From Polaromonas sp. JS666 (GTDB taxonomy: Bacteria > Pseudomonadota > Gammaproteobacteria > Burkholderiales > Burkholderiaceae_C): a stretch of DNA of 64,000 nt. This document shows, in pieces, positions 10,789 to 39,912 of this stretch. The notes below the pieces were generated by a model. The model was given only the letters and a program-made list of their open reading frames with translations, ran no database searches and was not told the origin of the DNA. The stretch lies in assembly GCF_000013865.1 (NCBI RefSeq), contig NC_007948.1, positions 5,136,265-5,200,264 on the forward strand, given 5' to 3'. The translations under genes and the position numbers were made by a program. How positions within the stretch are numbered: position 1 is the first letter of the stretch; each line of letters starts with the position of its first letter.

Positions 10789-11730
10789 CTACACGGCCAT
10801 GGCAGCCACCTGCTGCGCCAGCGCCACATACTCGGCCACCGGCACCTCCTCGGCCCGGCGCTGCACATCAAATGCGCCCGGGAAGCCCCGCGCCGTCAGC
10901 CACTGGCCCAGGGTATGGCGCAGCAGCTTGCGGCGCTGGCTGAAAGCCACCTGCACGAGCTGGCTCAGCAGTTTGACGTCCAGCGCCGCAGGATGGGCAT
11001 GCGGCACCATGCGCACGACCGCACTGTCCACTCGCGGCGGCGGGTCAAAGCTCTGCGGCGGTACAAACAGCACGTTTTCCATCGCGTAGCGCCACTGCAG
11101 CATCACGCTGAGCCGGCCATAGTCGCTGGTGGAGGGCGCCGCCACCATGCGGTCAATCACTTCCTTTTGCAGCATGAAGTGCTGGTCTTCAATCACGTCC
11201 ACGGCATCCAGCAGGTGGAACAAAATGGGCGTGGAAATGTTGTAGGGCAGGTTGCCGACCACCCGGAGCTTATGAGCCCCCACGCTTGTCACTTCGTGTA
11301 CTGCGCTGCCCCTCGAGGGGGCCGCTGCGCCTGCGGTCTGGCGAAGCCAGTCCCGCGGCCCCTGCTGGGATGAAGAGCCCGCAGGCTCCAGCCCCTTGGG
11401 AGCTGTTTCGGCTTGGGGCAGCCCTGCGCTGCGCACGGGGCCGTGTTGCAAGCGCTCTGCCAGTTGGCGAAAGTCCACCTTCAGGACATCCGATTCCACC
11501 ACCGTCAGCTGCGGATGGGCGCGCAGCTGCTGGGCCAGATCACGGTCCAGTTCAATCACCGTGAGATGCCCCAGCCGCTCAACCAGCGGCTGCGTCAGCG
11601 CCGCAAGGCCGGGGCCGATCTCCACCACCGCCTGGCCCGCCCTGGGCGCAATCGCCTGGACAATACCTTCAATAATGCCCTGGTCCGTCAGGAAATGCTG
11701 GCCAAAGCGCTTGCGCGGGATATGTTTCAC
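10789..11730 (-). CDS. ksgA: 16S rRNA dimethyladenosine transferase with an in-frame repeat insertion
   Basis: KsgA/RsmA methylates A1518 and A1519 of 16S rRNA using SAM. Family landmarks are RKRFGQHFL at the start, [12 protein letters not shown] (SAM motif I), [10 protein letters not shown] (motif IV) and the C-terminal [12 protein letters not shown] start it at GTG 11730, which gives the family's usual [11 protein letters not shown]-terminus; a TTG at 11781 would add 17 residues. The product is 313 residues, about 50 longer than usual. The excess is one block (about 99-152) encoded by a dispersed repeat and placed just before motif IV. The rest looks intact. The gene lies downstream of surA. 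Confidence 0.92.
11275..11434. repeat. Dispersed GC-rich repeat, copy inside ksgA
   Basis: The copy runs from GCCCCCACGCTTGTCACTTC through the core palindrome around CCTCGAGGGG to GCTTGGGGCAGCCCTG. Its first 95 bp match the intergenic copy at 11825-11920 almost base for base. Read in the ksgA frame it gives the peptide VHEVTSVGA without a stop. Confidence 0.85.
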
Positions 11731-11824
11731 GATCAGTTCTGCCCGCCAAAGTTGGGGCCGCTCTCCGACAGGCTCAAGCAATTTCCCGCCGGGCCGCCCA
11801 GTGACAAGCGCGGGGACTCTCCAA

Positions 11825-11920
11825 CCCAGCAGGGGCCGCGGGACTGGCTTTGCCAGACCGCAGGCGCAGCGGCCCCCTCGGGGGGCAGAGCGCTACACGC
11901 AGTGAGCAAACGTGGGGGCC
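11825..11920. repeat. Dispersed GC-rich repeat, intergenic copy between surA and ksgA
   Basis: This copy is in the opposite orientation to the one in ksgA and shares about 95 bp with it. It fills most of the gap between surA and ksgA, where many proteobacteria carry pdxA. Confidence 0.8.
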
Positions 11921-11924
11921 ACAT

Positions 11925-13346
11925 TCACTGCGGCGATTCGCGGTATTCCACATAGGCACGGCCGCGGACTTCCTGCGCCCACAGCACATACGCTTCTTCC
12001 TGCTTTTTCCCGCGCAGGACGTTGCGCGCCATCTCCCGCTGGTCGCGCTGGGACATCTGCGCCTCGCGCCGCTCCAGCACCTGGATCAGGTGCACACCAA
12101 AGCGCGACACCAGCGGGTCGGAAATCTGGTTGGGAGCCAGGCCGTTCATGACCTTCTCGAACTCGGGCACAAACATGCCGGGATTGGCCCAGCCCAGATC
12201 CCCGCCTTGTTTGGCGGAGGCGTCTTCACTGTTTTCGCGGGCCAGGGCGGCAAAATCGGCCTGGCCGGCCAGGATGCGCTTCCTGAGCGCGGCCAGCTTC
12301 TCCGTGGCGGCGGTTTCGCCCTGCTTGGGGGACAGCCGCAGCAGGATGTGGCGGGCATGGGTCTGCGTGATGACTGAGCCGGGCATGCCAGCCTGCCTTT
12401 TTTCAATCACCTTCAGGATATGAAAGCCGGCACCGCTGCGTATCGGACCGGCGAGCCCGCCCACCTTCAGGCTCTTGGTGCTTTCCACAAAAAGCGGCGG
12501 GTAGCGGTCTGCCTCGCGCAGGCCCATCAACCCGCCAGTGCCGCGGGTGGGGGAATCGGAGAACTCATTGGCCAGGGCCGCAAAGTCAGCGCCCCCGCGC
12601 GCCTTATCCATCACCTGCTGGGCCTTGGCCTGCAAGGCTGCGACCTGCCCGGGCGTGGCATTTTCAGGGACCGCCACCAGAATCTGGGCCAGATTGAGGG
12701 CCAGCGAAGACAACTCGGTGCCGCCTTCCTGTTCGCGCAGGAACTGGTCAATGTCCTGCTCGGTCACCGTCACCCGCAAGTCGACCTCACGCTGGCGCAA
12801 GCGGCTGACCAGCAGCTCGTCGCGCAAATCAGACTCGAACTGGCTGTAGGCAATGCCATCGGCCTTCAGGCGACGGCGCAGTTCATCCACACTGATCTGG
12901 TTTTGCCGGGCGACCGTCTGCACGGCGGCTTCGACGGCGTTGTCGTCGACGCGCATACCGGCCGATCGGGCCAGCTGCAACTGGGCCTTGTCGCTGATCA
13001 ACCGCTCCAGCACCTGCGGAACCAGTTCCCTGCGCGGGGGCAGGGGTGAGCCCTGCTGGATGATTTGCTGCTCGGTGCGGACCAGCTTGGTACGGACCTC
13101 GCTGTTGGTGATGGGCTCCGAATTCACGACCGCGACGATGAAGTCAGCCTGCCGCTGGCCCGAAGCGCTTCCGGCTGCAGCGCCCGCGCTGGCGGCGGGG
13201 GTGGGGAGCCGCAGCCCGCTGGAAGGCCGCAGGCTTTGGGCCTGCACGCCGATCAGGGGCAGGGTCAGCAGGAGCGCCAGCGCGGCAGCCAGGGGCCGGA
13301 CGGAGAGCACTCTGGCGATTCCGGCGAAAAGACGGTCATTAGTCAT
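11925..13346 (-). CDS. surA: Periplasmic chaperone / peptidyl-prolyl isomerase SurA
   Basis: A 473-residue SurA that escorts outer-membrane proteins, including LptD, through the periplasm. It has a signal peptide (hydrophobic stretch after VLSVRPLAAALALLL, cleavage near VQAQS), the SurA N-terminal domain (ADFIVAVVNSEPITNSE onward) and two parvulin domains (LAQILVAVPE and HARHILLRLSP). ATG 13346 is used. A frame extending to 13559 runs back through lptD coding sequence and is an artefact. It overlaps the end of lptD by 8 bp, so both are made from one message. Confidence 0.95.
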   Translation of the reverse strand: MTNDRLFAGIARVLSVRPLAAALALLLTLPLIGVQAQSLRPSSGLRLPTPAASAGAAAGSASGQRQADFIVAVVNSEPITNSEVRTKLVRTEQQIIQQGSPLPPRRELVPQVLERLISDKAQLQLARSAGMRVDDNAVEAAVQTVARQNQISVDELRRRLKADGIAYSQFESDLRDELLVSRLRQREVDLRVTVTEQDIDQFLREQEGGTELSSLALNLAQILVAVPENATPGQVAALQAKAQQVMDKARGGADFAALANEFSDSPTRGTGGLMGLREADRYPPLFVESTKSLKVGGLAGPIRSGAGFHILKVIEKRQAGMPGSVITQTHARHILLRLSPKQGETAATEKLAALRKRILAGQADFAALARENSEDASAKQGGDLGWANPGMFVPEFEKVMNGLAPNQISDPLVSRFGVHLIQVLERREAQMSQRDQREMARNVLRGKKQEEAYVLWAQEVRGRAYVEYRESPQ

Positions 13347-15807
13347 AGGTGGTAAAGCGGCTTGGGGTGTTGATTTTCTCACGCAGGTATTGGTAGCGTG
13401 GAACGTTGGATTTGAGGGTTTCCAGAGGGTTCGCGCCAATGCGCGAAAAACCGACCAGTTCAAGCTGGAACAGGATCCGGGTGTCGGACGTTGCCGTGCC
13501 GTTTTGCGTGCGCTGCAGCACGACCCGGCCGATCCAGCAGCAGCCGTCGTATTCCACACCGACGATCGCGTCCACCAGCTTCCTGTCGGGCACGCTGTAA
13601 TTCAGGCGCCCAACCGCATAGTAACGCCCTCCGCCCTGACCCTGCCCAGCCCCCAGGTCGCGCCCCTTGTCGCCCCACAGGTCATTGAGGGGCCACTGCC
13701 AGCCCACGTCAATCTGTTCGCTGATGTTGCGCTGGCGCCGGTACGCGGCGCTGATCACGCGGTAGTTTCCGGGGTTGTAGCGCACCCCGATCGAGCTGCG
13801 TTCGGACTGTTTGGTCTTGGGGTTGTATTGCACCGTGCTGTCAAAAGACCACTGCGGCACCCAGTTGACCGACGCGCCCACCAGCAAATCGCTGATGCGG
13901 TCGGTGATGGGCAAGGCGCCCGGCAAGGTCACGCGCTGGTCGGCAAAGCGCAGGCGCTGCGCGACACCCACGCGCACGGCCTCGGCACCGGTGGCAGGGT
14001 CCAGCAAACGGGAGGTCACGCCCAGGGTGAGCAGGTTGGCGTCTGAAATGCGATCGTTGCCGACAAAGGCATTCTCGGTAAACACCGTCGCAAAGTTGAA
14101 GTCATTGGCGCCCGAGTCGTAGTTGGGCAACAGGCTCTGGTCGCGGTAAGGCGTGCGCACATAAAAAGCCCGCGGCTCCAGTGTCTGGGTAAAACTGCGG
14201 CCCAGGAAGCCAGCCTGGCGTTCGAACTGCAGGCCGCTGTCCAGGCTGAAGGTCGGAACCGTGCGCGACGCCGACCGCGCGCCATTGACCAGCGGCGCGT
14301 CGAACTGGTAGCTGGTGGCGTGCAACTGCATTTTGGGGGTGATGAATCCGGCCGGCGACAGCCACGGGTGGCTGAGCTGGGCGCGGGTGAAGGCCCGGTT
14401 GCTATTGGGTTGCCCCGTCAACGTCCTGTCAGCGGAGAATCGGGTGTAGTCGCCCTCCACCGACCAGTCGAATCCGCGACCCAGGCCCAGCAGTGGCGCA
14501 TCCACCCGGGTGTAATTGGCGGTGAACTGGGGCAGGCGGTCGTAGGGCGGGACGATGGGCGCGCTCAGGTCCTGCAGTGTCTGCCATTTGAGGGTGCGTA
14601 CGGCAGCGGCAAAGAACCCACGGTTCCAGCTCACGGTGGCGTCCTGGGCTAGCAGACGCTGGGTGGTGGAGTTCGAGGCGATGGGGAAATCGCGCCAATA
14701 ATCGTTGTCGCTGACCCGGCTCAAATTGAGGTTGACGCCCAGATTGCCGATGGCGGACAGCCCGCTGTCGATGGTGCCGCTGTGCTGGTAGCCGTAGGAC
14801 CAGCGATCCCGGTTGCGCAACTTGTCGCCGGGCAGGATGTTGGCGCGCAGCTCGCCCTTGTAGGTCGGCTCCAGGTAGCGGAACTCGCCGGCCAGATCCA
14901 CGCCGCGCTTGGTCATGATGGCGGGCGAGAATGTCGCATCGCGGTTCGGCGCAATGTCGAAATAATACGGTTGCCGCACTTCAAAGCCGTTGACCGAACT
15001 CATGTTGAGGGTCGGCGGCAGCAGGCCCGACTTGCGCTTGTCGCTCAGCGGAAAGCTGAATTTGGGAAACCCCAGAATGGGCACGTTCTTGAAACGCAGC
15101 ACCGCGCCGTTGGCCACGCCGACTTCCTCGTCGAAATCAAATTCGAAGCTCCTGGCGCGCAATTCCCAGGCGGGCTTCCAGCTGGCTTCGTTGTCGCGCT
15201 CGCAGGTGGTGTAGCTGGCACGGTGCGCCGTGAGGTGTTTGTCATCGATAAAATCGACCCGCTCGGCCTGGCCGTTGCCGCCATTACTCAGAAAGCGGTA
15301 GCGCGGCTGGGTGAAAAAGCCCTCAAACCGGTCCAGCGTGATCTCCAGCTCGGGACCTTCAAACCGGTTGCCGGCGTTGTTGATGCGCACGTTGCCACGG
15401 CTTTTGACGCGATCTTCGGGCTGGTAATACTCGATCCGGTCGGCGCGTATGCTGGTGGCGCCGCGGCGCAGTTCCGCGTTGCCATCGATCACGGTTTCCA
15501 GATTGGGGCGGCCCGAGACGCTGTCGCCGAACACAAAGGTCGGCCCTTCATCTCCGGGTCCGTTGGGCACCTCCTCGGCCAGCGCCGGAGAGCTTTTGAG
15601 CTTGAGCGGGGTTTCCTGCTGCGCCGCAACCGGCGCAGAAGCGGGCGGGCGCGCTCCCAACGGGACTTCAGAGCCCCCCGCAGGCGCAGGCACCTGGGCA
15701 TGCCCCGACCCGGCGTACGTCCAGCCCAGCGTGGCGCACAGCACCAGACGGGAGACGGCGTGAGCCACCGGGGAAAGAATAAAGGGGGAGCGGGATGCGC
15801 GGCGCAT
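13339..15807 (-). CDS. lptD: LPS-assembly outer-membrane protein LptD
   Basis: An 822-residue LptD that inserts lipopolysaccharide into the outer leaflet. After a signal peptide comes an OstA-like jellyroll (about 105-230, with VIDGNAELRRGATSIRADRI), then a large beta-barrel rich in alternating aromatic strands. Conserved cysteines are seen in TTCERDNEASWKP and near the C-terminus (YDGCCWIGRVV), matching the cysteines that form LptD's disulfides. ATG 15807 is the natural start. surA follows and amgK is divergent, an arrangement also known in Pseudomonas. Confidence 0.95.
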   Translation of the reverse strand: MRRASRSPFILSPVAHAVSRLVLCATLGWTYAGSGHAQVPAPAGGSEVPLGARPPASAPVAAQQETPLKLKSSPALAEEVPNGPGDEGPTFVFGDSVSGRPNLETVIDGNAELRRGATSIRADRIEYYQPEDRVKSRGNVRINNAGNRFEGPELEITLDRFEGFFTQPRYRFLSNGGNGQAERVDFIDDKHLTAHRASYTTCERDNEASWKPAWELRARSFEFDFDEEVGVANGAVLRFKNVPILGFPKFSFPLSDKRKSGLLPPTLNMSSVNGFEVRQPYYFDIAPNRDATFSPAIMTKRGVDLAGEFRYLEPTYKGELRANILPGDKLRNRDRWSYGYQHSGTIDSGLSAIGNLGVNLNLSRVSDNDYWRDFPIASNSTTQRLLAQDATVSWNRGFFAAAVRTLKWQTLQDLSAPIVPPYDRLPQFTANYTRVDAPLLGLGRGFDWSVEGDYTRFSADRTLTGQPNSNRAFTRAQLSHPWLSPAGFITPKMQLHATSYQFDAPLVNGARSASRTVPTFSLDSGLQFERQAGFLGRSFTQTLEPRAFYVRTPYRDQSLLPNYDSGANDFNFATVFTENAFVGNDRISDANLLTLGVTSRLLDPATGAEAVRVGVAQRLRFADQRVTLPGALPITDRISDLLVGASVNWVPQWSFDSTVQYNPKTKQSERSSIGVRYNPGNYRVISAAYRRQRNISEQIDVGWQWPLNDLWGDKGRDLGAGQGQGGGRYYAVGRLNYSVPDRKLVDAIVGVEYDGCCWIGRVVLQRTQNGTATSDTRILFQLELVGFSRIGANPLETLKSNVPRYQYLREKINTPSRFTTYD

Positions 15808-15924
15808 CGTTTATGTGAGATAAACCCGTTTGTAAAATCAAGGCCGATTATCCATGACCCTCCACTCCATCCTTGGCGCCGCGAAGCAGCGCCGGGCCGC
15901 CGCCCTGACGAGGGCCCGCCAATC

Positions 15925-17091
15925 ATGATTCCTTCCCCTGTCGTCTGGGCCGATCCGGCGCGTGCCAGCGCCTTTGACAGCTGGCTGGCCGACATGGCCG
16001 GGCAGCACCGCCTGCGGGCCGATAGCGTGAGACTGGCTTCCGCTGACGCGAGCTTTCGCCGTTATCTGCGGGTAGACCGGGCAGACGGTGCGGGCAGTTT
16101 CATCATCATGGACGCGCCGCCGGCCCAGGAAGACTGCAAGCCCTTCGTCAAGGTGGCGGGGCTGATGCAGGACGCGGGCCTGAATGCGCCGCGCGTGCTG
16201 TCCTGGGATGAGCCCCTGGGCTTCATGCTGCTCACGGACCTGGGCGCGCAGACCATGCTCGACGTGATCGGACCACCCCAGGCCGCCGATGCCATCGCCA
16301 GCCCGACGGCTGCACACCATGCGCTGTACATGGATGCGGTGGATGCGCTGGTGCGCTGGCAGCTCGCCTCCCGGCCGGACGTGCTGCCGCCCTATGACGA
16401 TGCATTGTTGTCGCGCGAACTGGCGCTCTTCCCCGAGTGGTATGTCGCCCGGCACCGCGGCTTGGCACTGGATACCGGACTGCAGGACAAGCTCGATGGC
16501 CTGTTTGCGCAGATCAAAGCCAGCAACCTGCAGTCGCTGGGCGGGGCGCGCGTCTATGTGCACCGGGACTTCATGCCCCGAAATTTGATGGCCCCCACGC
16601 TTGTCGCTTCGCGTGCTGCACTGCCCCCCGAGGGGGCTGTTTCGCCTTGGGGCGGCCCGGCGGCGAAACCTCATGGTGAGTCCAGCACGCGCTTGGGCAT
16701 CCTGGACTTCCAGGATGCGGTGTACGGCCCCATCACCTATGACATTGCCAGCCTGATGCGCGACGCGTTCCTGAGCTGGGACGAGGACTTCGTGCTCGAC
16801 GTCACCGTGCGCTACTGGCAAAAGGCGCGCACGGCCAGCCTGCCGGTCGGTGATGATTTCGGCGAGTTTTACCGCGCCGTGGAATGGATGGGCCTGCAGC
16901 GCCACCTCAAGGTACTCGGCATCTTTGCGCGGCTCACGCTGCGCGACGGCAAGCCCAAATACCTGGCGGACACGCCGCGCTTTATCAAGTACGCACGCAA
17001 CACCGCCGCCCGCTACCGGCAGCTCGGTCCGCTGATGGTCCTGCTCGACGAGATTGAAGGCAACGAAACCCGCGTGGGCTACACTTTCTGA
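15925..17091 (+). CDS. amgK: Anomeric N-acetylmuramate/N-acetylglucosamine kinase, with an in-frame repeat near the active site
   Basis: A 388-residue aminoglycoside-phosphotransferase-fold kinase. AmgK phosphorylates C1 of MurNAc/GlcNAc in cell-wall recycling. Visible are the nucleotide region (SFRRYLRVDR), the catalytic HRDFMPRNLM near residue 215 and the magnesium site LDFQDAVYGP. In the family these two motifs are separated by only a few residues. Here about 33 extra residues (223-255) from a dispersed repeat lie between them. Position divergent from lptD supports the amgK call. The usual partner murU does not follow; rsmE does. ATG 15925 is chosen because the long upstream frame is antisense to lptD. 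Confidence 0.85.
   Translation: MIPSPVVWADPARASAFDSWLADMAGQHRLRADSVRLASADASFRRYLRVDRADGAGSFIIMDAPPAQEDCKPFVKVAGLMQDAGLNAPRVLSWDEPLGFMLLTDLGAQTMLDVIGPPQAADAIASPTAAHHALYMDAVDALVRWQLASRPDVLPPYDDALLSRELALFPEWYVARHRGLALDTGLQDKLDGLFAQIKASNLQSLGGARVYVHRDFMPRNLMAPTLVASRAALPPEGAVSPWGGPAAKPHGESSTRLGILDFQDAVYGPITYDIASLMRDAFLSWDEDFVLDVTVRYWQKARTASLPVGDDFGEFYRAVEWMGLQRHLKVLGIFARLTLRDGKPKYLADTPRFIKYARNTAARYRQLGPLMVLLDEIEGNETRVGYTF
16591..16664. repeat. Dispersed GC-rich repeat, copy inside amgK
   Basis: GCCCCCACGCTTGTCGCTTC, the GCCCCCCGAGGGGGC core and GGGGCGGCCCGGC are all present. Here the repeat is read in the opposite orientation to the other four gene-internal copies, giving APTLVASRAALPPEGA. Confidence 0.85.
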
Positions 17092-17980: not shown

Positions 17981-19231
17981 ATGAACCGCAACCTCTGGCT
18001 GCTGGCGATCTGCCAGGGTTTGTTTCTGACCAACAACGTCACCTTCATTGCCATCAATGGGCTGGTCGGCCTGAATCTGGCGCCACTGGGCTGGATGGCG
18101 ACGCTGCCCGTCATGGGCTATGTCGTCGGCGGTGCGCTCTCGACCGGGCTGGTGGCGCATACGCAAAGCCGCTTCGGCCGCAAAACCTCGTTCCAGCTCG
18201 GGCTGGCGGTCGCCCTGGCGTCGGCCTTGCTCTGCTGCTATGCGGCTTACAGCAAAAACTTCTGGCTGTTGGTCACGGCGACCGTGGTGGCGGGTTATTA
18301 CAACGCCAATGCGCAGTTGTACCGTTTTGCAGCCGCAGAGTTGGCGCTTCCGGCCTTTCGTGAAAAAGCCATTTCATGGGTGATGGCCGGCGGGCTGATG
18401 GGCGCGGTGGCGGGTCCGAATCTGGCGGCCTACACACGCGGCCTGACCGAGGTGCCCTTTGCCGGCGCCTACCTGGCGCTGGCCGGCGTGGCACTACTGG
18501 CCATGGGGCTGCTGGCCTTCATCCATTTTCCGCCGGCCGAATCCGGCGATGGCCATGGCCGCCGCGCCGGGCCGCCCCAAGCAAGGCCAGCCCCCTCGGG
18601 TGGCAGCGAAGTACACGAAGTGACAAGCGTGGGGGCGCCTGAAGGCCGGCCGCTGGGCCTGATCATGCGCCAGCCGGTCTTCATTGTCGCCGCGGCGGCG
18701 GGTGCGCTGGGCTATGGCGTGATGAACCTCCTGATGGCGGCGACGCCGATTGCCATGCAGGTCTGCGGCCTGCCGTTTTCCGATGTGGCGGTGGTGCTGC
18801 AATGGCATGTGATCGGCATGTTTGCGCCAGGCTTTTTCACCGGCCATCTGATCAAGCGCTACGGCACCCTGCCCATCATGGCGGTGGGTCTGGCACTGAA
18901 CATCCTGTGCGTGGGCATTGCGCTGTCGGGCGTTGATTTCAGGCAGTTTTTGCTTGCGCTGTTTTTACTCGGCCTGGGCTGGAACTTCCTCTTCACCGGC
19001 GGCACTGCACTGGCGCTGACCGCTTACCGCCCCGAAGAAAAAGACAAGGCCCAGGGTGCGCTGAATTTCTGCGTGTTTGCGGTGCTGGCGGTCTCTTCCC
19101 TGGCGTCCGGCGTGCTGGTGACCACCCAGGGCTGGGCACTGCTGAACCTGGGCTCGTTGCTGCCACTGGGTCTGACCGGACTGGCACTGGGCTGGCTTGC
19201 CCTGAAGCAGCGCCGGTACCAAACTGCCTGA
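17981..19231 (+). CDS. MFS transporter with an in-frame repeat in its central loop
   Basis: A 416-residue major-facilitator carrier with about 12 hydrophobic segments, grouped six and six. The sequence HTQSRFGRKTSFQ after TM2 is the MFS loop 2-3 signature. The substrate cannot be told. The central cytoplasmic loop (about 190-222) is lengthened by a dispersed repeat (residues 196-219, ending EVTSVGA), the part of the protein most likely to tolerate it. ATG 17981 is used. The reading frame stays open for 51 codons after the stop (see the entry at 19232). Confidence 0.85.
   Translation: MNRNLWLLAICQGLFLTNNVTFIAINGLVGLNLAPLGWMATLPVMGYVVGGALSTGLVAHTQSRFGRKTSFQLGLAVALASALLCCYAAYSKNFWLLVTATVVAGYYNANAQLYRFAAAELALPAFREKAISWVMAGGLMGAVAGPNLAAYTRGLTEVPFAGAYLALAGVALLAMGLLAFIHFPPAESGDGHGRRAGPPQARPAPSGGSEVHEVTSVGAPEGRPLGLIMRQPVFIVAAAAGALGYGVMNLLMAATPIAMQVCGLPFSDVAVVLQWHVIGMFAPGFFTGHLIKRYGTLPIMAVGLALNILCVGIALSGVDFRQFLLALFLLGLGWNFLFTGGTALALTAYRPEEKDKAQGALNFCVFAVLAVSSLASGVLVTTQGWALLNLGSLLPLGLTGLALGWLALKQRRYQTA
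18566..18636. repeat. Dispersed GC-rich repeat, copy inside the MFS gene
   Basis: Reverse-oriented copy, from CCGGGCCGCCCCAAGCAAGG to GACAAGCGTGGGGGC. It matches the M20 peptidase and sulP copies in orientation relative to coding and in frame (VHEVTSVGA). Confidence 0.85.
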
Positions 19232-20459: not shown

Positions 20460-21962
20460 TCAACCCGGCATCCGGGCCATGACATGCGCTACCGCTGCGG
20501 TCAGCTTCTTGGCATAGGGCACGTTCAGGAATTCATTGGGCCCATGGGCATTACTCTTGGGGCCCAGCACGCCGCAGACCATCATCTGCGCCTTGGGAAA
20601 GCCATGGCTCAGCATGTTCATGAGCGGGATCGTGCCGCCCTGGCCAATGGTGCCGCAGGGCGCGCCAAAGAAACTCTGCGAGGCATCGTTCAGCGCCTGC
20701 TCAAACCAGGGCACGGTACCGGGGGCGTTCCAGCCGGTGGCGCCGCCGCTGCTTTCAAAGGTGACCCGGGCCTGGTAGGGAGCGTTGTCTTCGAGCAGGG
20801 TTTTCAGTTCCTGCACGGCGGCGCTGGCGTCAATCAGCGGCGGAAAGCGCAGCGAGAGCTTGAAGGCGGTGTAGGGTCGCAGCACATTGCCCGCATCCTG
20901 GAGCGCCGGAAAACCTTCCGCGCCGGTCACGCTCAGGGTGGGCCGCCAGGTGCGGTTGAGCAGCGCCTCCACCGGGTCGTTGGTGGTCGGCAGGGCCAGG
21001 GTGTTTGAGCCTTCGCAGTCGTAGTGGGCCCACGGAAAGCGCTTGTAGATTTCATCGCCCAGAATTTGGGCCGTGGCCTGCGCCTGGGCCAGCCGGTCGG
21101 CCGGGATTTCACAGTGAAAGCTCTGCGGCAGCAGGCGCCCGGTCTTGCTGTCCTCCAGGCGGTCCAGCACCTGCCGCATGATGCGAAAGCTCGACGGCAC
21201 CAGCCCGCTGGCATCGCCCGAATGCACGCCCTCGGTCAGCACCTCGACCTTGAGCACACCGGCCGCATTGCCGCGCAGGCTGGTGGTGAGCCAGAGCTGG
21301 TCGTAATTGCCCGCGCCGGAGTCCAGGCAGACCACCAGCGCCACGTCGCCCAGCCGGTCTTTGAGCGCGTTCACATAGGGCAGCAGGTCATAGGAGCCGC
21401 TTTCTTCGCAGGATTCGATCAGGCCGACGATGCGCGGGTGCGCCACGCCCTGCGCCTTCAGGGCCTGTACCGCGGCAATGCTGGCATACACCGCATAACC
21501 GTCATCGGCGCCGCCGCGGCCATAGAGCTTGCCGTCCTCGTATTTCGGCGTCCACGGGCCCAGGTCATTGCGCCAGCCGGTGAACTCGGGCTGCTTGTCG
21601 AGGTGGCCGTACATCAACACCGTGGGACGTGCCCCCACGCTTGTCGCTTCGCGTACTGCGCTGCCTGACGAAGCCGGAATCTCAAAAAACAGCACCGGCG
21701 TGCGCCCTTCCAGCCGCACGATCTCCAGCGTCAGGCCTTCGACTTTTTGCGCCTCCACCCAGCTGGCGGCGTTGCGCATGACGGTGTCGATGAAACCGTG
21801 CTGCGCCCAGTCGCTGTCAAAAGTGGGCGACTTGGCGGGAATGGCGATGTAGTCGGTGATCTGTTGGACGATGTCGCCGTCCCACTGAGCGGACACCTGC
21901 GACAGGGCTTGGGCGGCGTTGAGGACGCTGGCGGGAATTTCGCGGTGCAGGGGGGCATTCAT
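20460..21962 (-). CDS. M20-family metallopeptidase (dipeptidase-like) with a short in-frame repeat
   Basis: A 500-residue M20 zinc peptidase. Metal ligands and catalytic residues are in YGHLDKQPE, YGRGGADDGYA and ESCEESGSYDL. A dimerisation (lid) domain lies in the middle, and the C-terminal ligand region is HGPNEFLNV. It probably cleaves small peptides in the cytoplasm. I use ATG 21962 with GGAG 9 bp upstream rather than 22001. A 46-bp repeat copy adds about 15 residues (96-110, REATSVGA), directly before the first metal-ligand strand. Confidence 0.88.
   Translation of the reverse strand: MNAPLHREIPASVLNAAQALSQVSAQWDGDIVQQITDYIAIPAKSPTFDSDWAQHGFIDTVMRNAASWVEAQKVEGLTLEIVRLEGRTPVLFFEIPASSGSAVREATSVGARPTVLMYGHLDKQPEFTGWRNDLGPWTPKYEDGKLYGRGGADDGYAVYASIAAVQALKAQGVAHPRIVGLIESCEESGSYDLLPYVNALKDRLGDVALVVCLDSGAGNYDQLWLTTSLRGNAAGVLKVEVLTEGVHSGDASGLVPSSFRIMRQVLDRLEDSKTGRLLPQSFHCEIPADRLAQAQATAQILGDEIYKRFPWAHYDCEGSNTLALPTTNDPVEALLNRTWRPTLSVTGAEGFPALQDAGNVLRPYTAFKLSLRFPPLIDASAAVQELKTLLEDNAPYQARVTFESSGGATGWNAPGTVPWFEQALNDASQSFFGAPCGTIGQGGTIPLMNMLSHGFPKAQMMVCGVLGPKSNAHGPNEFLNVPYAKKLTAAVAHVMARMPG
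21631..21676. repeat. Dispersed GC-rich repeat, short copy inside the M20 peptidase gene
   Basis: Only the first half of the repeat is present, GCCCCCACGCTTGTCGCTTC followed by GCGTACTGCGCTGCC. It is cut off before the central palindrome. Confidence 0.8.
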
Positions 21963-22156
21963 GGGGGCAAACTCCGGGAACGAAAAGTGCGCGCTGGGCA
22001 ATGGCTGCTACTTTACGCTGACCTTAAAAATCGCGCCACTGAATACTGGCGCGGAATGCGACTTACAGCTGCAGTTGCGGCCCCGGCCTGTTTGATCGAT
22101 GATTTCTGGCCCAACTATCTCCTTCATTTAGAGGAGATCCCGCACATGGAGACCTG

Positions 22157-24588: not shown

Positions 24589-27039
24589 ATGAGCATCGCA
24601 GAAACATTGACAACGCCCGATACCACCGTGGCGCTGAACGATTGGCGCTTTCCGGTGCAGGGCATGACCTGTGCGTCCTGCGTCGCCCGGGTGGAGCAGG
24701 CCCTGCGCGGCATTGCGGGGGTGCTGGAGGTCAATGTCAATTTTGCGACCGAGCAGGCCGCCGTCAAGGCGCGTGGTGATGTAGCGATGGGAACGCTGAA
24801 GGCCGCCGTGGAGAAGGCGGGCTATGCCGTCACCGAGCAGCCGCTGCGGCTCGGCATAGAGGGCATGACCTGCGCGTCCTGCGTCTCGCGCGTGGAGAAG
24901 GCGCTCAGGCAGCTGCCCGGCGTGCTGTCGGCCGAGGTCAATCTGGCCACCGAGACGGCCGAGGTCAATCTGATGGGTGGCACGATCTCGATGCCTCAAC
25001 TCATCGCCGCGGTGGCCAAGGCGGGCTACCAGGCCCACGAAATGCGGGCCCCCGGCGACAGCCTGGCCGATCAGGCCCGCGCCGCCGGCAAGCCCGGCGC
25101 GCCGTGGTGGCCGGTCGCGCTGGCGGCGCTCCTGTCCGCGCCGCTGATCCTGCCCATGCTGGGTGCGCTGGCCGGCCGGCACTGGATGCTGGACGGCTGG
25201 CTGCAATGGGCGCTGGCCACGCCGGTGCAGTTCTGGCTGGGTGCGCGCTTTTACCGCGCGGGTTTCAAGGCCCTGCGCGCCCGGACCGGCAACATGGACC
25301 TGCTGGTGGCCATCGGTACATCAGCCGCCTATGGCCTCAGTGTTTACCAGCTGCTGGTGCACGGCGAACACGCGATGGATCACCTCTACTTCGAGGCCTC
25401 GGCCGTCGTGATCACGCTGGTGCTGATGGGCAAATGGATGGAAGCGCGCGCCAAGCGCCAGACCACCGAAGCGATCCGCGCGCTCAATGCGCTGCGGCCG
25501 GACACCGCACGCCGGCGCCGCGACGGCCGGGACGAAGAGGTCGCCATCTCCGAGGTGCGGGTGGGCGACCTGGTCGTGGTGCGCCCCGGGGAACGCATCG
25601 CCGTCGACGGTAACATCATCGAAGGCGACACCCAGGTCGACGAGTCGCTGATCACGGGCGAAAGCCTGCCCGTCAGCAAGCACGCGGGCGACCGCGTCAC
25701 CGGCGGAGCCATCAACGCCGAAGGCCTGATCGTGGTGCGCACCGCGGCCGTCGGAGCCGAATCCACGCTGGCGCGCATTGTGCGCATGGTGGAGTCGGCG
25801 CAAGCCCGCAAGGCACCGATACAGCGGCTGGTCGACCAGGTCAGCGCGGTGTTCGTGCCGGTGGTCATGGCCATCGCGCTGCTGACGCTGCTGGGCTGGG
25901 GCTTACTCACCGGCCAGTGGGAGGCCGCCATCCTGCATGCCGTGGCCGTGCTGGTGATCGCCTGCCCGTGCGCGCTGGGGCTGGCCACACCGACGGCCAT
26001 CATGGCCGGCACCGGGGTGGCCGCGCGCCATGGCATCCTGATCAAGGACGCCGAGGCACTGGAAGTCGCGCACCGCGTCAAGCTGGTGGCCTTTGACAAG
26101 ACCGGCACGCTGACGCAGGGCCATCCCGAGCTGGTCGCGCTGGAGCCTTACGGCGGTTCGCGTGATGCCCTGCTGGCCTGGAGTGCCGCCATCCAGGCCG
26201 GCAGCGAGCACCCGCTGGCCAAAGCCGTGGTCGCGCAGGCCGCGCGGGACGGCCTGCACGTTCCTGCCGCGTCACAGGTGCAGGCGGTCGCCGGGCGCGG
26301 CATGTCGGCAGTGGTCGAGGGGCGGGCACTTCGGCTGGGCAGCCCGCGCTTCATGCAGGAGCTGGGGGTCGACCTGGGTGCCTGCGCGGCACGCGCCCAG
26401 GCGCTGGAGGACGAAGGCCGCACCGTGTCCTGGCTGGCCGACGTCACCGTCCAGCCGCAACTGCTGGGCCTGATGGCGTTTGGCGACAGCCTCAAGCCGG
26501 CCGCAGGCCCGGCCATTGCCCGGCTGCACGCGCTGGGCATACAGACCGCCCTGATCACCGGCGACAACCGCGGCAGCGCTGAAAGCGTGGCTCGCCAGCT
26601 TGGCATTGACCGGGTGCATTTTCAGGTGCTGCCGGAAGACAAGGCCGGCATCCTCAGCCGGCTCAAGCGGGAGCTGCAGGGCACGGCCGGCCACACCGCG
26701 ATGGTGGGCGACGGCATCAATGACGCACCGGCCCTGGCGGCCGCCGATGTCGGTATTGCCATGTCCACCGGCACCGATGTGGCCATGCATGCGGCGGGCA
26801 TCACGCTGATGCGCGGCGACCCTGCGCTGGTGGCCGATGCCATCGACATCTCGCGCCGCACCTACGCCAAGATCCGGCAAAACCTGTTCTGGGCATTTTT
26901 CTACAACGTGGTGGGCATACCGCTGGCGGCCTTTGGCCTGCTGAACCCGGTGATTGCCGGTGCCGCCATGGCCTTGAGCAGCGTCAGCGTGGTGATGAAC
27001 GCGCTGCTGCTGCGGCGCTGGAAAGGAAGCACGACATGA
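24589..27039 (+). CDS. copA: Copper-exporting P1B-type ATPase with two HMA domains
   Basis: An 816-residue CopA that pumps Cu(I) out across the inner membrane. Two N-terminal HMA domains each carry GMTCASC (Cys28/Cys31 in the first; the second near residue 92). Eight membrane segments follow. The transmembrane metal site is CPC in [12 protein letters not shown] (about residue 459), the phosphorylated aspartate lies in DKTGTLT (about 503), with GSEHPLA and [12 protein letters not shown] in the ATP-binding and hinge regions. It shares an ATGA overlap with cueR. Confidence 0.97.
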
Positions 27040-29762: not shown

Positions 29763-30437
29763 TCACCAGTGCGCGCCAAAGGTCTGGCGCAATTGATCGA
29801 TCTGGATGTCGGTCAGGGGTTGGGGTAAGGGCTGGCTCAGGGCCATCAGCCTGGCGGTTTCTTCCAGTTCTTCCAGCACGGCCATGGCTGCGGCGGGCGA
29901 GTCGTGCCAGACATTGGGCCCCAGGCGCTCCAGCATGACAGCACGGATCGGCGTGCCGCGCTCACCATAGCGCGTGATGGTTTGCGCCACCAGGGCCGCT
30001 GCATCGGGGTCACCGGGGCGGTGATAGGGGATCAGCGGCACATGGCCGACCTTCATCACGAAATAGGGCGTGATCGGCGGCAGCAGCTCCGTCCCCTTGG
30101 CCTGCAGGCTCAGCGCCACGCAGTGCGTGCTGTGGGTATGGATGACGCAGCAGGTGTTGGCATCAAACCGGCCCGCAGCGCCATAGATATGGGCATGCAG
30201 TGCAATGGTCTTGCTGGCCCGGTCGCCGCTGAGCTGTTGCGCGTTGGCGTCCAGCCGCGCCAGCCTGGCCGGATCGAGAAAGCCCAGGCAGGCGTCCGTC
30301 GGCGTGATCAGGAAGCCGCCGCCCGCCGAAGCATCGAGCCGTACGCTGATATTGCCGGCAGTGGCGTGCACATAGCCGCGCTCGAACAGGCTTTTGCCCA
30401 CGCGGCAGATTTCTTCACGGGCCTGGTTTTCAGTCAT
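29763..30437 (-). CDS. otnC: 3-oxo-tetronate 4-phosphate decarboxylase (class II aldolase family)
   Basis: A 224-residue class II aldolase/adducin-fold enzyme. Zinc-binding histidines are in [21 protein letters not shown] and ITPTDACLG form the substrate site. OtnC decarboxylates the 4-phosphate to dihydroxyacetone phosphate. It lies 72 bp after otnK; the gap carries a degraded copy of the dispersed repeat. Confidence 0.9.
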
Positions 30438-30458
30438 GCGGACCGCTCCAAGGAAAGC

Positions 30459-30509
30459 ATGCGCCCCTCAGGGGCAGTGCAGCCGCGCAGCGGCAAATGT
30501 AGGGGCTCA
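30459..30509. repeat. Dispersed GC-rich repeat, diverged intergenic copy between otnK and otnC
   Basis: CGCCCCTCAGGGGCAGTGCAGCCGC and the following AAATGTAGGGGCTC line up with the repeat core and its 5' arm in reverse, with many substitutions. Confidence 0.5.
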
Positions 30510-31793
30510 TCATTGCAGCATCGTAAAGGCTTTGGTGAAGAAGTCATCACTGCCGAAGTTGCCCGACTTCAGCGTCAGGTGCACCCCTTGACCGGCAGCG
30601 GCGTCCGACAACGCATGGCACCAGGGCACGCCCGGATCGATCTGCGGGCCGATCTGCAGCTGGGAGATGTTCAGGGCCTGCACGCAGGCGCCCGAGGTTT
30701 CCCCGCCGGCCACCACCAGCTGGCGCACGCCGCGCTCGACCAGGCCGCGCGCAATGGCCGCAATGGTGCGCTCAACCATGGCGCCGGCTTCTTCGACGCC
30801 GAGGCGGCCTTGCACCGATTTCACCGCATTCGAGTCCGCCGTGGAATACACCAGCACCGGGCCTTGCTGGATCAGCGGCGCAGCCCAGGTCAGTGCCTCG
30901 GCCGCAACGTCCACGCCGGCCGCGATGCGCAGGGGTTCGATGGCCAGCGCCGGCCGGCCGGACTTGATGAAGGCCAGCACCTGGCGGTTGGTGGCCAGCG
31001 AGCAGCTGCCCGACACCACGGCCTGCAGGCCGCCTGCCGGGGGCAGCTCGCTGGCTTTGGAGGAGGGCGTGATGCCGAAGTTCTGCGGCAGGCCGATGGC
31101 CACGCCGGAGCCGGCGGTCACCAGCGGCATGCCCTTGAGCGCCGGGCCAAGGCGCAACAGGTCGTCGTTGGACAGCGCGTCCACCACGGCGACCCCGATC
31201 CCCTCGGCCTTGAGCTGGTCAATGCGCGCACGGATCGCTGCCTCGCCCCGGGCCACGACACGGTAGTCAATCAGCCCGACCTTGCGCCGCGTCTGCGCCT
31301 GCAGCACGCGCACCAGGTTGGCGTCGGTCATAGGGGTGAGCGGGTGGTTCTGCATGCCGCTTTCATTGAGCAGCACGTCGCCGGCAAACAGGTAGCCCTT
31401 GAAGACGGTGCGCTGGTTGTCGGGAAAAGCGGGTGTGGCGATGGTGAAGTCAGTCTTCAGCGCATCCATCAGGGCTTCGGTCACCGGGCCGATGTTGCCG
31501 CGGGTTTCTCCGCTGAAGGTGCTGTCGAAGGTGGAGCAGTACTTGAAATAGATTTGCTGCGCGCCCTGGGCCTGCAGCCAGGCCAGCGCTTGCAGCGATT
31601 GCGCCACGGCCTCGGCCGGCGCAATGGTGCGCGACTTCAGCGCCACCACCACGGCATCCACTTCGGCGCCGAGCGGGCCGGCCGGCACGCCTATGGTCTG
31701 CACCACGCGCATGCCGGCGCGCACCAGGTTGTTGGCCAGGTCGCTGGCCCCGGTGAAGTCGTCGGCAATACAGCCCAGAAGAATCTTGCCCAT
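30510..31793 (-). CDS. otnK: 3-oxo-tetronate kinase (four-carbon acid sugar kinase family)
   Basis: A 427-residue DUF1537-type kinase. The N-terminal domain begins LLGCIADDFTGASDLANNL, the family signature; the C-terminal nucleotide domain has VVAGGETSGACVQAL and SGNFGSDDFF. It phosphorylates 3-dehydro-tetronates at C4 in the cytoplasm. The start (ATG 31793) touches the denD stop, so translation is coupled. Confidence 0.92.
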   Translation of the reverse strand: MGKILLGCIADDFTGASDLANNLVRAGMRVVQTIGVPAGPLGAEVDAVVVALKSRTIAPAEAVAQSLQALAWLQAQGAQQIYFKYCSTFDSTFSGETRGNIGPVTEALMDALKTDFTIATPAFPDNQRTVFKGYLFAGDVLLNESGMQNHPLTPMTDANLVRVLQAQTRRKVGLIDYRVVARGEAAIRARIDQLKAEGIGVAVVDALSNDDLLRLGPALKGMPLVTAGSGVAIGLPQNFGITPSSKASELPPAGGLQAVVSGSCSLATNRQVLAFIKSGRPALAIEPLRIAAGVDVAAEALTWAAPLIQQGPVLVYSTADSNAVKSVQGRLGVEEAGAMVERTIAAIARGLVERGVRQLVVAGGETSGACVQALNISQLQIGPQIDPGVPWCHALSDAAAGQGVHLTLKSGNFGSDDFFTKAFTMLQ

Positions 31794-34184: not shown

Positions 34185-34338
34185 AGCCCCCACGTTTGCC
34201 GCCAAGGCGGCTGCACTGGACAGGCCGCCGCCAGAGTCGGCGGCTCTTCGTCCCGTCCCAGCCTGCGAAGGCAGGCTGGGAGCCGCGGGACTCAGCCCCT
34301 CGGGGACACAAGCTTGCTTGAAGCGGTTCTGCGCGGCG
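34185..34338. repeat. Dispersed GC-rich repeat, diverged copy between dctQ and dctM
   Basis: The region begins AGCCCCCACGTTTGCCGCC and ends with CCCCTCGGGGACACAAGCTT and GCTTGAAGCGG, which match the two ends of the family. The middle is expanded, with an extra hairpin (CCCAGCCTGCGAAGGCAGGC). Confidence 0.55.
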
Positions 34339-34339
34339 C

Positions 34340-34852
34340 TCATAGGGAAGCACTCGCGTTGGCGTCAAAATGGGCGTCGGCGGCAAACTCGCGGCGCGCC
34401 ACGTAGCCGCGCACGATCAGCAGCCAATGCACGACGGTGAATGCGATGCCCAGGGGCAAAGCCATGTAGACATACGCAAACGACAGCTGCGTGGCCGGCG
34501 TCTGCTGGTACTGCGTGCGCTGCATATATTCGATGCCGAACCAGACAATGAACACGAAGAACCCGAGCAGCAGCACCGCAATCACCACGCGCAAGGCCAC
34601 GGCCAGCCGGGCCGGCAACGCGTCCTGCAGGTTATCCACGGCAATATGGCCGCCGTAGCGCAGCACCGGGCCACAGCCGAGAAAAGTCAGCCAGATCATC
34701 ATGTGGCGGGACACTTCCTCAGCCCACTCGAGCGACTCGCTGGTGAGGTAGCGCAGGCAGACATTGGTGAAAATGATGACCGCCATGGTCGCCAGCAGGC
34801 CGATCAGCGCCCAGCGGTTGGCCGAAAGAAACAGTCGTTCCAGGTTTTTCAT
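34340..34852 (-). CDS. dctQ: TRAP transporter small permease (DctQ)
   Basis: A 170-residue four-helix membrane protein of the DctQ family. Markers are NVCLRYLTSESLEWAEEVSR, the MIWLTFLGCG helix and the closing VVHWLLIVRG helix. It couples the periplasmic binding protein to DctM. Start ATG 34852. Confidence 0.9.
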   Translation of the reverse strand: MKNLERLFLSANRWALIGLLATMAVIIFTNVCLRYLTSESLEWAEEVSRHMMIWLTFLGCGPVLRYGGHIAVDNLQDALPARLAVALRVVIAVLLLGFFVFIVWFGIEYMQRTQYQQTPATQLSFAYVYMALPLGIAFTVVHWLLIVRGYVARREFAADAHFDANASASL

Positions 34853-34893
34853 GGGGAGCTCCGGTGCCGCGATACCGCGGCACGCGCTGCAAG

Positions 34894-36930: not shown

Positions 36931-36990
36931 TTTGGAGTTTTTGACCTCTTGGGGTTTTCCCGAAGGACAAGGCTGACGATTGGGGCCGGC

Positions 36991-37767: not shown

Positions 37768-37769
37768 GG

Positions 37770-37793
37770 GTACGACTTAATTTATCGTACAAC
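37770..37793 (-). promoter_or_regulatory. GntR operator upstream of the regulator gene
   Basis: GTACGA (37770-37775) and TCGTAC (37785-37790) form a perfect dyad. Read on the minus strand it begins GTTGTACGATAA, matching the ltnD site at 11 of 12 positions. It suggests autoregulation. Confidence 0.65.
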
Positions 37794-37815
37794 TTTAACG
37801 CACCGGCCCGAAGTT

Positions 37816-39912
37816 TCAAACAGGGTGGGTATCCGTGTCCGTGTCCGTGTCGGTGTCCGGTCCAGGCACGCTCTGGCACTCCCAGAAAATGCGCGCCGTG
37901 CAGCGCCGGCATATCGCGGGATCGAGCTTGTTGAAAATCGTCGCGATCGCGGTGAACTTGTCGGGAAACTGGTGCTCGGGACCCAGCACACGGGTAAAGC
38001 CGGTCTTGCGCCACATGCGGATCACCTCGGGCCGCGGCCGATGAAAATACAGGTCGCCCCCCATGGCGCGGCGCGCGGCCAGCTCGGCCTCCCACAACTC
38101 GGCGCCGGCCAGGTCAATGAAGTTCATGCTCTTGCCCATGACCAGCAAATGCTTTTGCGGTTGCGGCTGGTGGCGCAGTGCATGCAGGATGTCGGCTACA
38201 TGCTGGGTCGCCCCGAAATACACCTCGCCCTCCATGCGCAGCAGCTTGAGCTGCGGGCATTCAGGCAAGAATGTGGCCCCCACGCTTGTCGCTTCGCGTA
38301 CTACGCTGCCCCCCGAGGGGGCTGAACTTGCTTGGGGCGGCCCTGCGCTGCGTTCGCTGGCCCCCACGCTTGTCGCTTCGCGTGCCTTCGGCGTTGCGCT
38401 GCCCCTTTCACGGGGAAACGGGGCTGAACTTGCTTGGGGCGGCCCTTCGCGGCGTTCGCTGTCGTCATCCGCTTTCTGCGGCAAAGTCATCTCAGTTTCA
38501 AGCCCGGCATCGGGGGTGCTGTCGATCACCACAAACTGCCGGTCCAGCCCGCGGCTGTCAAAGCCCATGGTGCGCATCGCGGGGCGCGAGGTGCGGTACA
38601 AAAAGGACATCAGCGACAGGATCATGCCCAGCAAAATGGCAATCTCCAGCCGAATGGTGACCGTCGCGACCATGGTGGCCAGCGCCACCGCAAAATCGCT
38701 GCGGCTCAAGCTGAACAGCTGGCGCCAGCGCGCAAAGTCCAGCAGGGCGACAGCCACCAGCACCAGCAAGCCGGCCAGTGCAGCCATGGGAATGAGCGCC
38801 AGCAGTGGTGCGCTGACTGCAACCAATACGAGCAAGAGCAGTGCAGAAAACACCGAGGCCAGTGGTGTCCGGGCACCCGCTTGCAGATTGGGCATGGAGC
38901 GGTTCATGGAGCCGCAGGACACATAGCAGGAGAAAAACCCGCCGACGATGTTGGACAGCCCCTGGCCGCGAAACTCGCGGTTCGCATCAATGCGCTGGCC
39001 CGAGCGCAGCGCCACCGTCTTGGCAATCGAAATCGCCTGCCCCAGGGCCACGATGGTCAGCGCAAATGCCAGGCCGACCAGGTCTGTGGCTTGGGCCCAG
39101 CTGATGCGGGGCAGCTCAAAGCGCGGCCATGGCACAGGGATCTGCCCCACGGTACGCAGCGCGAAAGATGGCGTGGCGCTGCCGGCGTTCAGGAAATGGC
39201 TCCACAGCCACGCCAGCGCGGTGGCTACCACCAGGCCGATCAGCATGTGCGGCCAGCTGCGACGCAGGCGGCGCAGCAGCAGTGCCACGCCGATGGTGAT
39301 GGCGCCCACCGCCAGCGCCACAGGTTGCACCAGATACAGCTGCGTGAACACATGCCTGAGCACGGCCGCGGCGCTGTGCTCGGGCGCGGCGGGCAAGCCC
39401 AACAGGTCGGGCAGTGCATGCACCGCAATCAGCAATGCCGCGCCCGAGGTAAAGCCAAAGAGCGTTGCCGGAGAAATGAAATTGGCCAGCACGCCCAGGC
39501 GCAGCGCGCCAATCAGCCACTGCATCACGCCGACCATCACGGTGATGGCCAGCGCCAGCTGGATGTACTGCGGGCTGAAGGCCATGGCCAGCGGCGATAG
39601 CATGGCAAACAGCGCCAGCGAATTGGCGTTGGTGGGGCCCGACATGACGTGCCAGCTGGAGCCAAACAGCGCGGCGATGATGCAGGGAATGACGGCGGTG
39701 TACAGGCCATATTCCGGCGGCAGCCCGGCCAGCGTGGCAAAGGCAATGCCCTGCGGCAGCACCAGCACCGCGCCGAGCAGGCCGGCCATGGCATCAGCGC
39801 GCAGTGTGACGGGCGACACCTGCCGCACCCAGTCGCCAAACAGGCGCTCAACCCTGGTGCGGGTGGGCGCTTCCTGGTGTTTTTCGGGGTCTCCTGCCAT
39901 GGGCTTGAGCAT
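37816..39912 (-). CDS. SulP-family anion permease with STAS domain and a double in-frame repeat in the linker
   Basis: A 698-residue SulP transporter. The membrane part (about 30-470) has family signatures AMAGLLGAVLVLPQGIAFA, PPEYGLYTAVIP and SGPTNANSLAL. A STAS domain follows (about 550-640, LLVMGKSMNFIDLAGAELW). Sulfate or another anion is the likely substrate. The linker is lengthened by some 60 residues from two tandem copies of the dispersed repeat, each ending EATSVGA. The C-terminus is a (Asp-Thr) run from a hexanucleotide tandem repeat, after a cysteine-rich CRRCTARIFWEC segment. ATG 39912 or 39900 can both serve as start. Confidence 0.85.
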   Translation of the reverse strand: MLKPMAGDPEKHQEAPTRTRVERLFGDWVRQVSPVTLRADAMAGLLGAVLVLPQGIAFATLAGLPPEYGLYTAVIPCIIAALFGSSWHVMSGPTNANSLALFAMLSPLAMAFSPQYIQLALAITVMVGVMQWLIGALRLGVLANFISPATLFGFTSGAALLIAVHALPDLLGLPAAPEHSAAAVLRHVFTQLYLVQPVALAVGAITIGVALLLRRLRRSWPHMLIGLVVATALAWLWSHFLNAGSATPSFALRTVGQIPVPWPRFELPRISWAQATDLVGLAFALTIVALGQAISIAKTVALRSGQRIDANREFRGQGLSNIVGGFFSCYVSCGSMNRSMPNLQAGARTPLASVFSALLLLVLVAVSAPLLALIPMAALAGLLVLVAVALLDFARWRQLFSLSRSDFAVALATMVATVTIRLEIAILLGMILSLMSFLYRTSRPAMRTMGFDSRGLDRQFVVIDSTPDAGLETEMTLPQKADDDSERREGPPQASSAPFPRERGSATPKAREATSVGASERSAGPPQASSAPSGGSVVREATSVGATFLPECPQLKLLRMEGEVYFGATQHVADILHALRHQPQPQKHLLVMGKSMNFIDLAGAELWEAELAARRAMGGDLYFHRPRPEVIRMWRKTGFTRVLGPEHQFPDKFTAIATIFNKLDPAICRRCTARIFWECQSVPGPDTDTDTDTDTHPV
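37830..37859. repeat. Hexanucleotide tandem repeat at the 3' end of the sulP gene
   Basis: About five units of GTGTCC (one with G for C) encode alternating Asp-Thr on the minus strand. A six-base unit keeps the frame when it changes in number. Confidence 0.85.
38275..38461. repeat. Two tandem copies of the dispersed GC-rich repeat inside the sulP gene
   Basis: Unit 1 is 38275-38358 and unit 2 is 38359-38461. Both begin GGCCCCCACGCTTGTCGCTT and end CGGCCCTKCGCKGCGTTCGC (K = G or T). Unit 2 carries a changed, longer central hairpin (GCCCCTTTCACGGGGAAACG). Both are read in the same frame. Confidence 0.9.

Follow-up and report, generated by a model that had tools for sequence, protein, structure and literature searches.

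The small genomes of Rickettsia and the weak selection acting on them could explain why palindromic repeats have come to lie in frame within genes. Such insertions are best known from this genus, in which the rickettsial palindromic elements (RPEs; ~150 bp) provide unrelated genes with a conserved peptide (Ogata et al. 2000, 2002, as summarised in PMC10969869). The enterobacterial repeats RU-1, RU-2 and RU-3 (127, 168 and 103 bp) keep open frames inside annotated genes (Delihas 2007, PMC2759123). REP sequences of the GTAG and CGTC families are small palindromes close behind gene 3′ ends; some lie inside open reading frames, and two Xanthomonas share a copy at roughly one position of recB (Di Nocera et al. 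2013, PMC3733652). The beta-proteobacterial repeat element, BRE, measures ~90 bp in full (75–91 in Bordetella) and 40–60 bp in partial copies, has an above-genome-average GC content (69.0% in Bordetella), is chromosomal only and often stands in tandem with no or few nucleotides (nt) between units. It is usually intergenic, with some copies overlapping the ends of open reading frames and some wholly inside coding sequences, and it is most numerous in Polaromonas sp. JS666, with 29 copies (Hot et al. 2011, PMC3110155). The same source suspects mobility, assigns no function and gives a B. pertussis reference copy (3605317-3605401) as well as lexA-adjacent copies in the B. pertussis group.

Here we describe a repeat of Polaromonas sp. 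JS666, seen in a stretch of 64,000 nt (positions 5,136,265 to 5,200,264 of NC_007948.1; hereafter the window) that makes up the final 64 kb of a contig of 5,200,264 nt, the other contigs of the genome measuring 360,405 and 338,007 nt. Copies of the repeat lie inside five genes of the window, and the genic copies retained here and in related genomes are read in the same two frames. We consider it likely that the repeat is a mobile but non-autonomous, REP-like hairpin element of Burkholderiales chromosomes, probably BRE, and that its genic copies, which by prediction from sequence seem to be translated as an additional protein loop, have been filtered by selection for harmless peptides.

RPEs and intragenic REPs show the closest known behaviour. 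With RPEs the repeat shares in-frame presence and a conserved peptide in unrelated genes, the very likeness pointed out in the initial annotation; it differs in bacterial class, in its 84–106-nt unit and in having two readable frames on opposite strands, a comparison of traits rather than of sequences. Here in-frame palindromic insertions are common in large genomes of another class. RU-1, RU-2 and RU-3, compared by description, are likewise small mobile intragenic repeats, of other sizes and in other hosts. The restriction of the retained genic copies to two frames, the recurrent host loops and the closeness of many other copies to a preceding stop codon are new here.

Repeat copies and their host genes in the window

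A 35-nt core of the repeat matches the window five times at ≤3 mismatches and none of 100 shuffled windows. Covariance model R1, built from 47 copies and accepted in the window at E <0.001, recovers every place at which the initial annotation had put a copy, namely ksgA, amgK, an MFS gene, an M20 peptidase gene, sulP (two copies) and three intergenic sites (Table 1); two weaker matches (E 0.29 and 0.44) were disregarded. Host frames stay open across all genic copies, and the hosts are recognised by Pfam or NCBIfam (RrnaAD/KsgA, APH/AmgK, MFS_1, Peptidase_M20, Sulfate_transp plus STAS), in line with the earlier description of open frames and of host proteins that continue normally on both flanks. 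The inserted peptides read VREATSVGA in M20, AREATSVGA and VREATSVGA in sulP and, from the opposite strand, APTLVASRAALPPEGA in amgK. The R1 match of the M20 gene spans 21631-21715, yet only about its first 35 nt are repeat by orthologue comparison. The degenerate intergenic copy occupies an open stretch ahead of the next minus-strand protein. All five core-bearing clusters of the window (11276-38461) are genic, versus 11 of 75 elsewhere on the chromosome.

Table 1. Positions in the window of repeat copies and of the genes that host them
Feature	Position	Strand	Remarks
Host gene ksgA/rsmA	10789..11781	-	TIGR00755 245.9 bits, above cut-off; RrnaAD/KsgA family
Repeat copy, long type, inside ksgA	11276..11355	+	Antisense-read, frame anti1, end ..VHEVTSVGA; R1 66.5 bits and core match
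Further, partial stretch of repeat within this ksgA insert	11377..11440	+	R1 E 0.00046
Intergenic copy	11843..11919	-	5′ end 5 nt past stop of frame 11925-13559 (-)
Open frame containing amgK	14653..17088	+	APH domain; NF045759 AmgK 341.7 bits, under cut-off 550
Repeat copy inside amgK, APTLVASRAALPPEGAVSPWGGPA	16591..16674	+	Sense-read, frame sense0; R1 90.9 bits
Host MFS transporter gene	17981..19231	+	MFS_1
Repeat copy inside MFS gene	18553..18636	-	Antisense-read, frame anti1; R1 94.7 bits
Host M20 family peptidase gene	20460..22001	-	Peptidase_M20
Core-only repeat copy inside M20 peptidase gene	21631..21665	+	Antisense-read; exact core
Intergenic copy	30425..30506	-	5′ end 3 nt past stop of frame 30510-31793 (-)
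Degenerate copy	34186..34345	+	R1 E 0.00037; 3′ end overlaps last 6 nt of frame 34340-34852 (-)
Host gene sulP	37816..39945	-	Insert in linker between Sulfate_transp (48-424) and STAS (565-654)
First of two tandem sulP copies	38276..38359	+	Antisense-read; R1 102.2 bits
Second tandem sulP copy	38360..38461	+	Start 84 nt past first; R1 60.2 bits

Eighty loci around the M20 gene (the best 80 of 594 from named organisms) were fetched. A set of 138 loci outside this genome (1.7 Mb) was obtained with SulP, KsgA and M20 queries. The MFS site has a short linker and no copy in all 44 relatives, among those 80, that were matched by pattern. At the five host sites compared, a copy occupies 31 of 231 site-loci (MetX 8/30, AmgK 8/48, KsgA 4/54, M20 4/82, SulP 7/17) and 200 are empty, a site-locus being counted where both anchors are present, with the window included and the identical SulP linkers of L032 and L095 among them. 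The MetX site, named by NCBIfam, emerged from the relatives and was absent from the gene list of the initial annotation. Comparison of the DNA displays the empty sites directly. The KsgA linker has 69 residues here versus 8–46 in 50 unoccupied loci; unoccupied linkers measure 11–19 residues in M20, except for 23, 25 and 42, and 8–13 in AmgK, except for 21 and 23. Since the linkers of most orthologues are short here, the interpretation of the genic window copies as in-frame insertions into conserved proteins holds. As to the refuting case named beforehand, equally long unrelated segments at the same places, linkers are mostly short, but those of KsgA vary and a few long ones (M20 of L113, KsgA of L075) seem to have nothing in common with the repeat. 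Assembly errors, the other such case, are unlikely because copies recur at the same sites in other genomes. Orthologues with longer linkers of their own indicate that these loops vary in length generally. In L075 the same KsgA loop carries a Gly-Thr repeat linker, an unrelated mode of lengthening. One Polaromonas SulP (L032, L095) contains about five tandem in-frame copies, which make up a 146-residue linker before STAS.

Genic copies and their reading frames

Genic copies were called with repeats masked, by scoring codon usage over 150 nt on each side and requiring one open frame throughout. Eighteen of the 80 core-bearing clusters of this genome are spanned in this manner; two were dropped (254033, 847091), and all 16 of those kept are read in frame anti1 of the antisense strand (10) or frame sense0 of the sense strand (6). 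The antisense peptides are ..SGGSxVxExTSVGA-like and the sense peptides APTLVxxRxxLPPEGA-like. Hosts beyond the window, assigned by family search, are RecJ, an alpha/beta hydrolase, FolC, GcvP, a PhzF-like isomerase, a histidine phosphatase, a LysR regulator, GlnE and a GH94-like protein, together with an amidohydrolase of weak coding score, in which the domain was found only past the insert, and an RlmI-like methyltransferase that scores under the cut-off of that model. The 138 loci hold 68 clusters, of which 30 were flagged genic; after removal of L099, 29 of 29 use the same two frames (18 antisense, 11 sense). Sixty stretches of three further element-rich genomes, picked from model matches regardless of context, gave 82 clusters and eight genic flags; L359, L365 and L377 were dropped and 5 of 5 kept copies again use these frames, in MetX, biotin carboxylase, Mpl, an FAD-dependent protein and a FemAB-like protein. 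Apart from L377, which is without core, the dropped rows have the element exactly where the open frame begins. Clusters near an edge were left unclassed (one among the 138 loci, three among the further genomes). The initial annotation had described a same-frame bias, with ksgA, MFS, M20 and sulP in agreement and amgK read from the other strand. A strong bias is borne out, but it extends to two frames instead of one, that of amgK accounting for 6 of 16 genic clusters.

Over 80 nt, copies free of stops number 88 of 88 in sense0, 87 in anti1, 84 in sense1, 80 in anti2, 44 in sense2 and 27 in anti0. Stop codons do not explain the two-frame rule, because sense1 and anti2 are nearly stop-free as well: with six frames weighted by openness, the two used frames have a probability of 0.427 per event and 1.2e-6 for 16 of 16 (1.5e-5 for four equal frames). 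What sets them apart is their mean net charge, which is the lowest (+0.7 and +1.25 vs +3.1 to +5.9), and their codon scores, the two best of six; cysteine content does not separate all frames, anti2 having the least. The simplest account of the two frames is that only mild linkers survive. Selection for tolerated insertions, one of the two causes offered in the initial annotation, is accordingly the simpler one, as it fits both peptide charge and codon score.

An AlphaFold2 model of this KsgA, based on a shallow alignment of 24 rows, has a confident fold on both sides of the insert (~98-153), with a predicted local distance difference test score (pLDDT) >90 over most of the rest, while residues 109-151 have pLDDT <50 and no secondary structure. 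We infer from the model that the inserted loop would be disordered. A search of solved structures for the inserted peptide, at E up to 10, returned none.

Anatomy and identity of the repeat

The 88 chromosomal copies fall into two types, 50 of ~84 nt and 38 of ~106 nt, which diverge past the second hairpin. GC content is 69.5% over the 50 copies of the 84-nt type and 72.6% over the 38 of the 106-nt type, vs 64.1% for the window, and spacings of 83, 84, 84 and 84 nt occur among eight close pairs. An alignment of 47 copies starts with GCCCCCACGC (few with ACCCCC) and is variable at the 3′ end; the 5′ flank is biased to T at −4, A/G at −3, T at −2 and G at −1, roughly TATG. As regards the MITE traits of terminal inverted repeats and target duplication, the hairpins are internal, no terminal inverted repeat was noticed in the 47-copy alignment and the junctions are too diverged to judge a duplication.

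Three hairpins are supported by compensatory changes. When 47 of the 50 ~84-nt copies were scored against a hand-drawn three-hairpin structure and 500 shuffles, 92.2% of cells were paired (82.9% shuffled), 120 cells were changed on both sides (46.3 shuffled) and covariation was 0.275 (0.126 shuffled), with 0 of 500 shuffles as high in each case. Exchanges within hairpin 1 include G-C 33/U-A 14, U-A 38/C-G 8 and A-U 29/G-C 18. In hairpin 3, measurable in 47 of 50 copies, 21 distinct 5′ arms tend to match their own 3′ arms, with a mean run of 5.13; when partners were shuffled, the run averaged 3.02 and did not exceed 3.77 in 1000 rounds. Because variable arms still match their own partners, and because of the covariation, selection seems to act on the hairpins, either as single-stranded DNA or as RNA.

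The repeat is probably BRE, with which it was matched by description (length, GC, tandem spacing and location) rather than by sequence. The likeness comprises the length of the 84-nt type, a GC content of ~69%, tandem and chromosomal occurrence, genic copies and abundance in JS666. On the other side, the 106-nt type and the 35-nt partial copy fall outside the stated ranges, and 29 copies reported for JS666 (PMC3110155) compare with 88 core matches here. The chromosome-only trait holds in this genome; elsewhere, 3 of 72,556 plasmid records match. No copy adjoins lexA in seven genomes, none of them known as belonging to the B. pertussis group. The available part of the BRE description gives no peptide, frame rule, recurrent host site, structure or stop distance (PMC3110155), no title on BRE peptides or frames stood among the literature matches listed, and the full BRE name was found only in PMC3110155, in searches that mostly left subscription journals outside. 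The repeat is REP-like in its position close behind stop codons (34/88 and 49/104, see below); unlike REPs, it has no GTAG or CGTC tag at its unit ends in the 47-copy alignment, and its unit is longer, with three hairpins. None of 17 Y1_Tnp loci showed a RAYT-like gene flanked by the repeat.

Distribution and genomic position

The core pattern (≤3 mismatches) has 88 matches in the genome and none for a reversed-pattern control; all 88 lie on the 5,200,264-nt contig (C1) and none on the 360,405- and 338,007-nt contigs. R1 matches 12 of 120 genomes drawn across the order and 50 of 60 genomes of the family, one per genus, this genome being counted in both samples; four of the latter stand at the scoring ceiling of 75. 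The plasmid records matched by an 82-nt consensus come from Variovorax (two) and Acidovorax (one), and none of 50,697 phage records matches that consensus at E 1e-5.

In this genome 34 of 88 copies start 0–13 nt past a co-oriented stop codon and none at 14–76 nt; in three other genera 49 of 104 copies lie within 76 nt past such a stop, 46 of them at ≤10 nt. Among 4000 random positions, such a stop lies at a distance of up to 76 nt in 139 cases and of up to 13 nt in 19.

Two candidates for a mobile carrier or partner were rejected. A copy-rich stretch (C1:602528-612558) was considered as a transposon; its long frames, judged by their translations rather than by a family search, resemble those of a region for branched-chain amino-acid transport. 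The only Y1_Tnp gene found in this genome (L171, C1:813752-814072), considered as a RAYT partner, is without a copy of the repeat. By eye, this lone gene is bounded by an unrelated inverted repeat, GGGTCAGATTCCAAT.

Origin of the genic copies and of their frames

The loops of SulP, AmgK, MetX, KsgA and the M20 peptidase are each occupied in several species, which could reflect old insertions inherited from a common ancestor and lost in most species. Eroded remnants in KsgA of L065 and L071 are compatible with such differential loss, as are three Variovorax AmgK copies (L101, L106, L121) that look like one inherited insertion; parsimony, moreover, tallies changes and not gains. On quick trees the M20 states (4 occupied rows of 80) need four changes and the AmgK states (48 sequences) eight. 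Both orientations of the element occur at the AmgK and MetX sites in different species and are hence not the product of a single insertion, the copies differ in type and extent, and M20 is occupied in L096 but empty in L093, which is 97% identical. We therefore hold differential loss as the source of recurrence to be very unlikely. The same recurrence might instead mean that the inserts are useful, the element distributing functional linkers or regulatory loops that are under positive selection in these enzymes. This is an equally remote prospect, given that 200 of 231 site-loci are unoccupied, that occupancy differs between close species and that no codon-level constraint on the peptide was seen. 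A 20-nt scar of the element retained in KsgA of L065 and L095 suggests that inserts are trimmed in frame over time.

The main rival to selection as the cause of the frame bias is an insertion mechanism that sets the frame itself through codon-phased recognition of a target such as the TATG-like motif, with selection adding little. The bias of the 5′ flank speaks for it, and the initial annotation had likewise entertained a mobility mechanism. However, ATG is present in all three gene phases, so that a short motif of this kind would not alone fix codon phase; the antisense frame would place ATA, a codon rare in such genomes, at the junction; and several genic copies lack a TATG-like motif. We regard codon-phased insertion as improbable and favour filtering of a mobile repeat by selection, both its mobility and the role of selection in the two-frame rule being inferred. 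Copies would land at many places, yet genic ones would be retained only at tolerant surface loops of the protein, and only when read in either of two frames that are free of stops and whose peptide (~28 residues for each unit of 84 nt) is weakly charged and encoded by the least unusual codons. Once inserted, the peptide would drift and be trimmed in frame, leaving short scars. Rather doubtful is the further idea that the repeat forms a standing, family-wide supply of ready-made in-frame linkers, entering the same loops of the same core enzymes again and again in different species and in both orientations, each time in one of the two frames that it keeps open itself, and has evolved to be readable on both strands, thereby surviving in genes.

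Several results weigh against filtering of a mobile hairpin repeat by selection. None of 17 Y1_Tnp loci in 10 genomes, this one included, has an R1 match at E up to 0.1 over the stretches covered. Some orthologues, KsgA above all, have long linkers without a detectable copy. Purifying selection on the inserted peptide was not detected, codon-position divergence being alike in genic and other copies. The dropped rows include the only ones labelled sense1 or sense2 (254033, L099, L359, L365), in each of which the element begins no more than ~2 codons into the open frame and hence lies behind a stop; the rule for dropping was set after these rows had been seen, though its reason is structural. 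The queries for the 138 loci carried the anti1 peptide, which makes host sites non-random, and not every copy is independent, L032 and L095 sharing one SulP linker. As regards the hairpins, two of five structure measures do not stand clear of the shuffles: pairs changed on both sides (10 vs 8.1 shuffled; equalled or exceeded in 25 of 500) and further pair types (24 vs 28.2; equalled or exceeded in all 500). The structure was hand-drawn, and an RNAalifold consensus gives another pairing of columns and a covariation term of only −0.52.

Copies lie in core enzymes (KsgA, RecJ, FolC, GcvP, GlnE, MetX, Mpl), with the same loops occupied in several related species. The resulting natural pairs of occupied and empty orthologues could reveal which loops tolerate a ~28-residue peptide, why two frames survive and whether inserted peptides ever become useful.

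Other features of the window

Upstream of the frame 24589-27039 lies a 38-nt inverted repeat (24256-24293/24380-24417; 82% complementary, 86 nt between its arms), and the frame itself opens with a 46-nt direct repeat (24659 and 24860, 87%). The minus strand carries a manganese (yybP-ykoY) riboswitch at 44968-45170 and a chrB-b RNA at 42261-42317. Pieces of a group II intron are found on the same strand within 52003-54487, matching the Rfam families Intron_gpII (52003-52079) and group-II-D1D4-7 (54345-54487).

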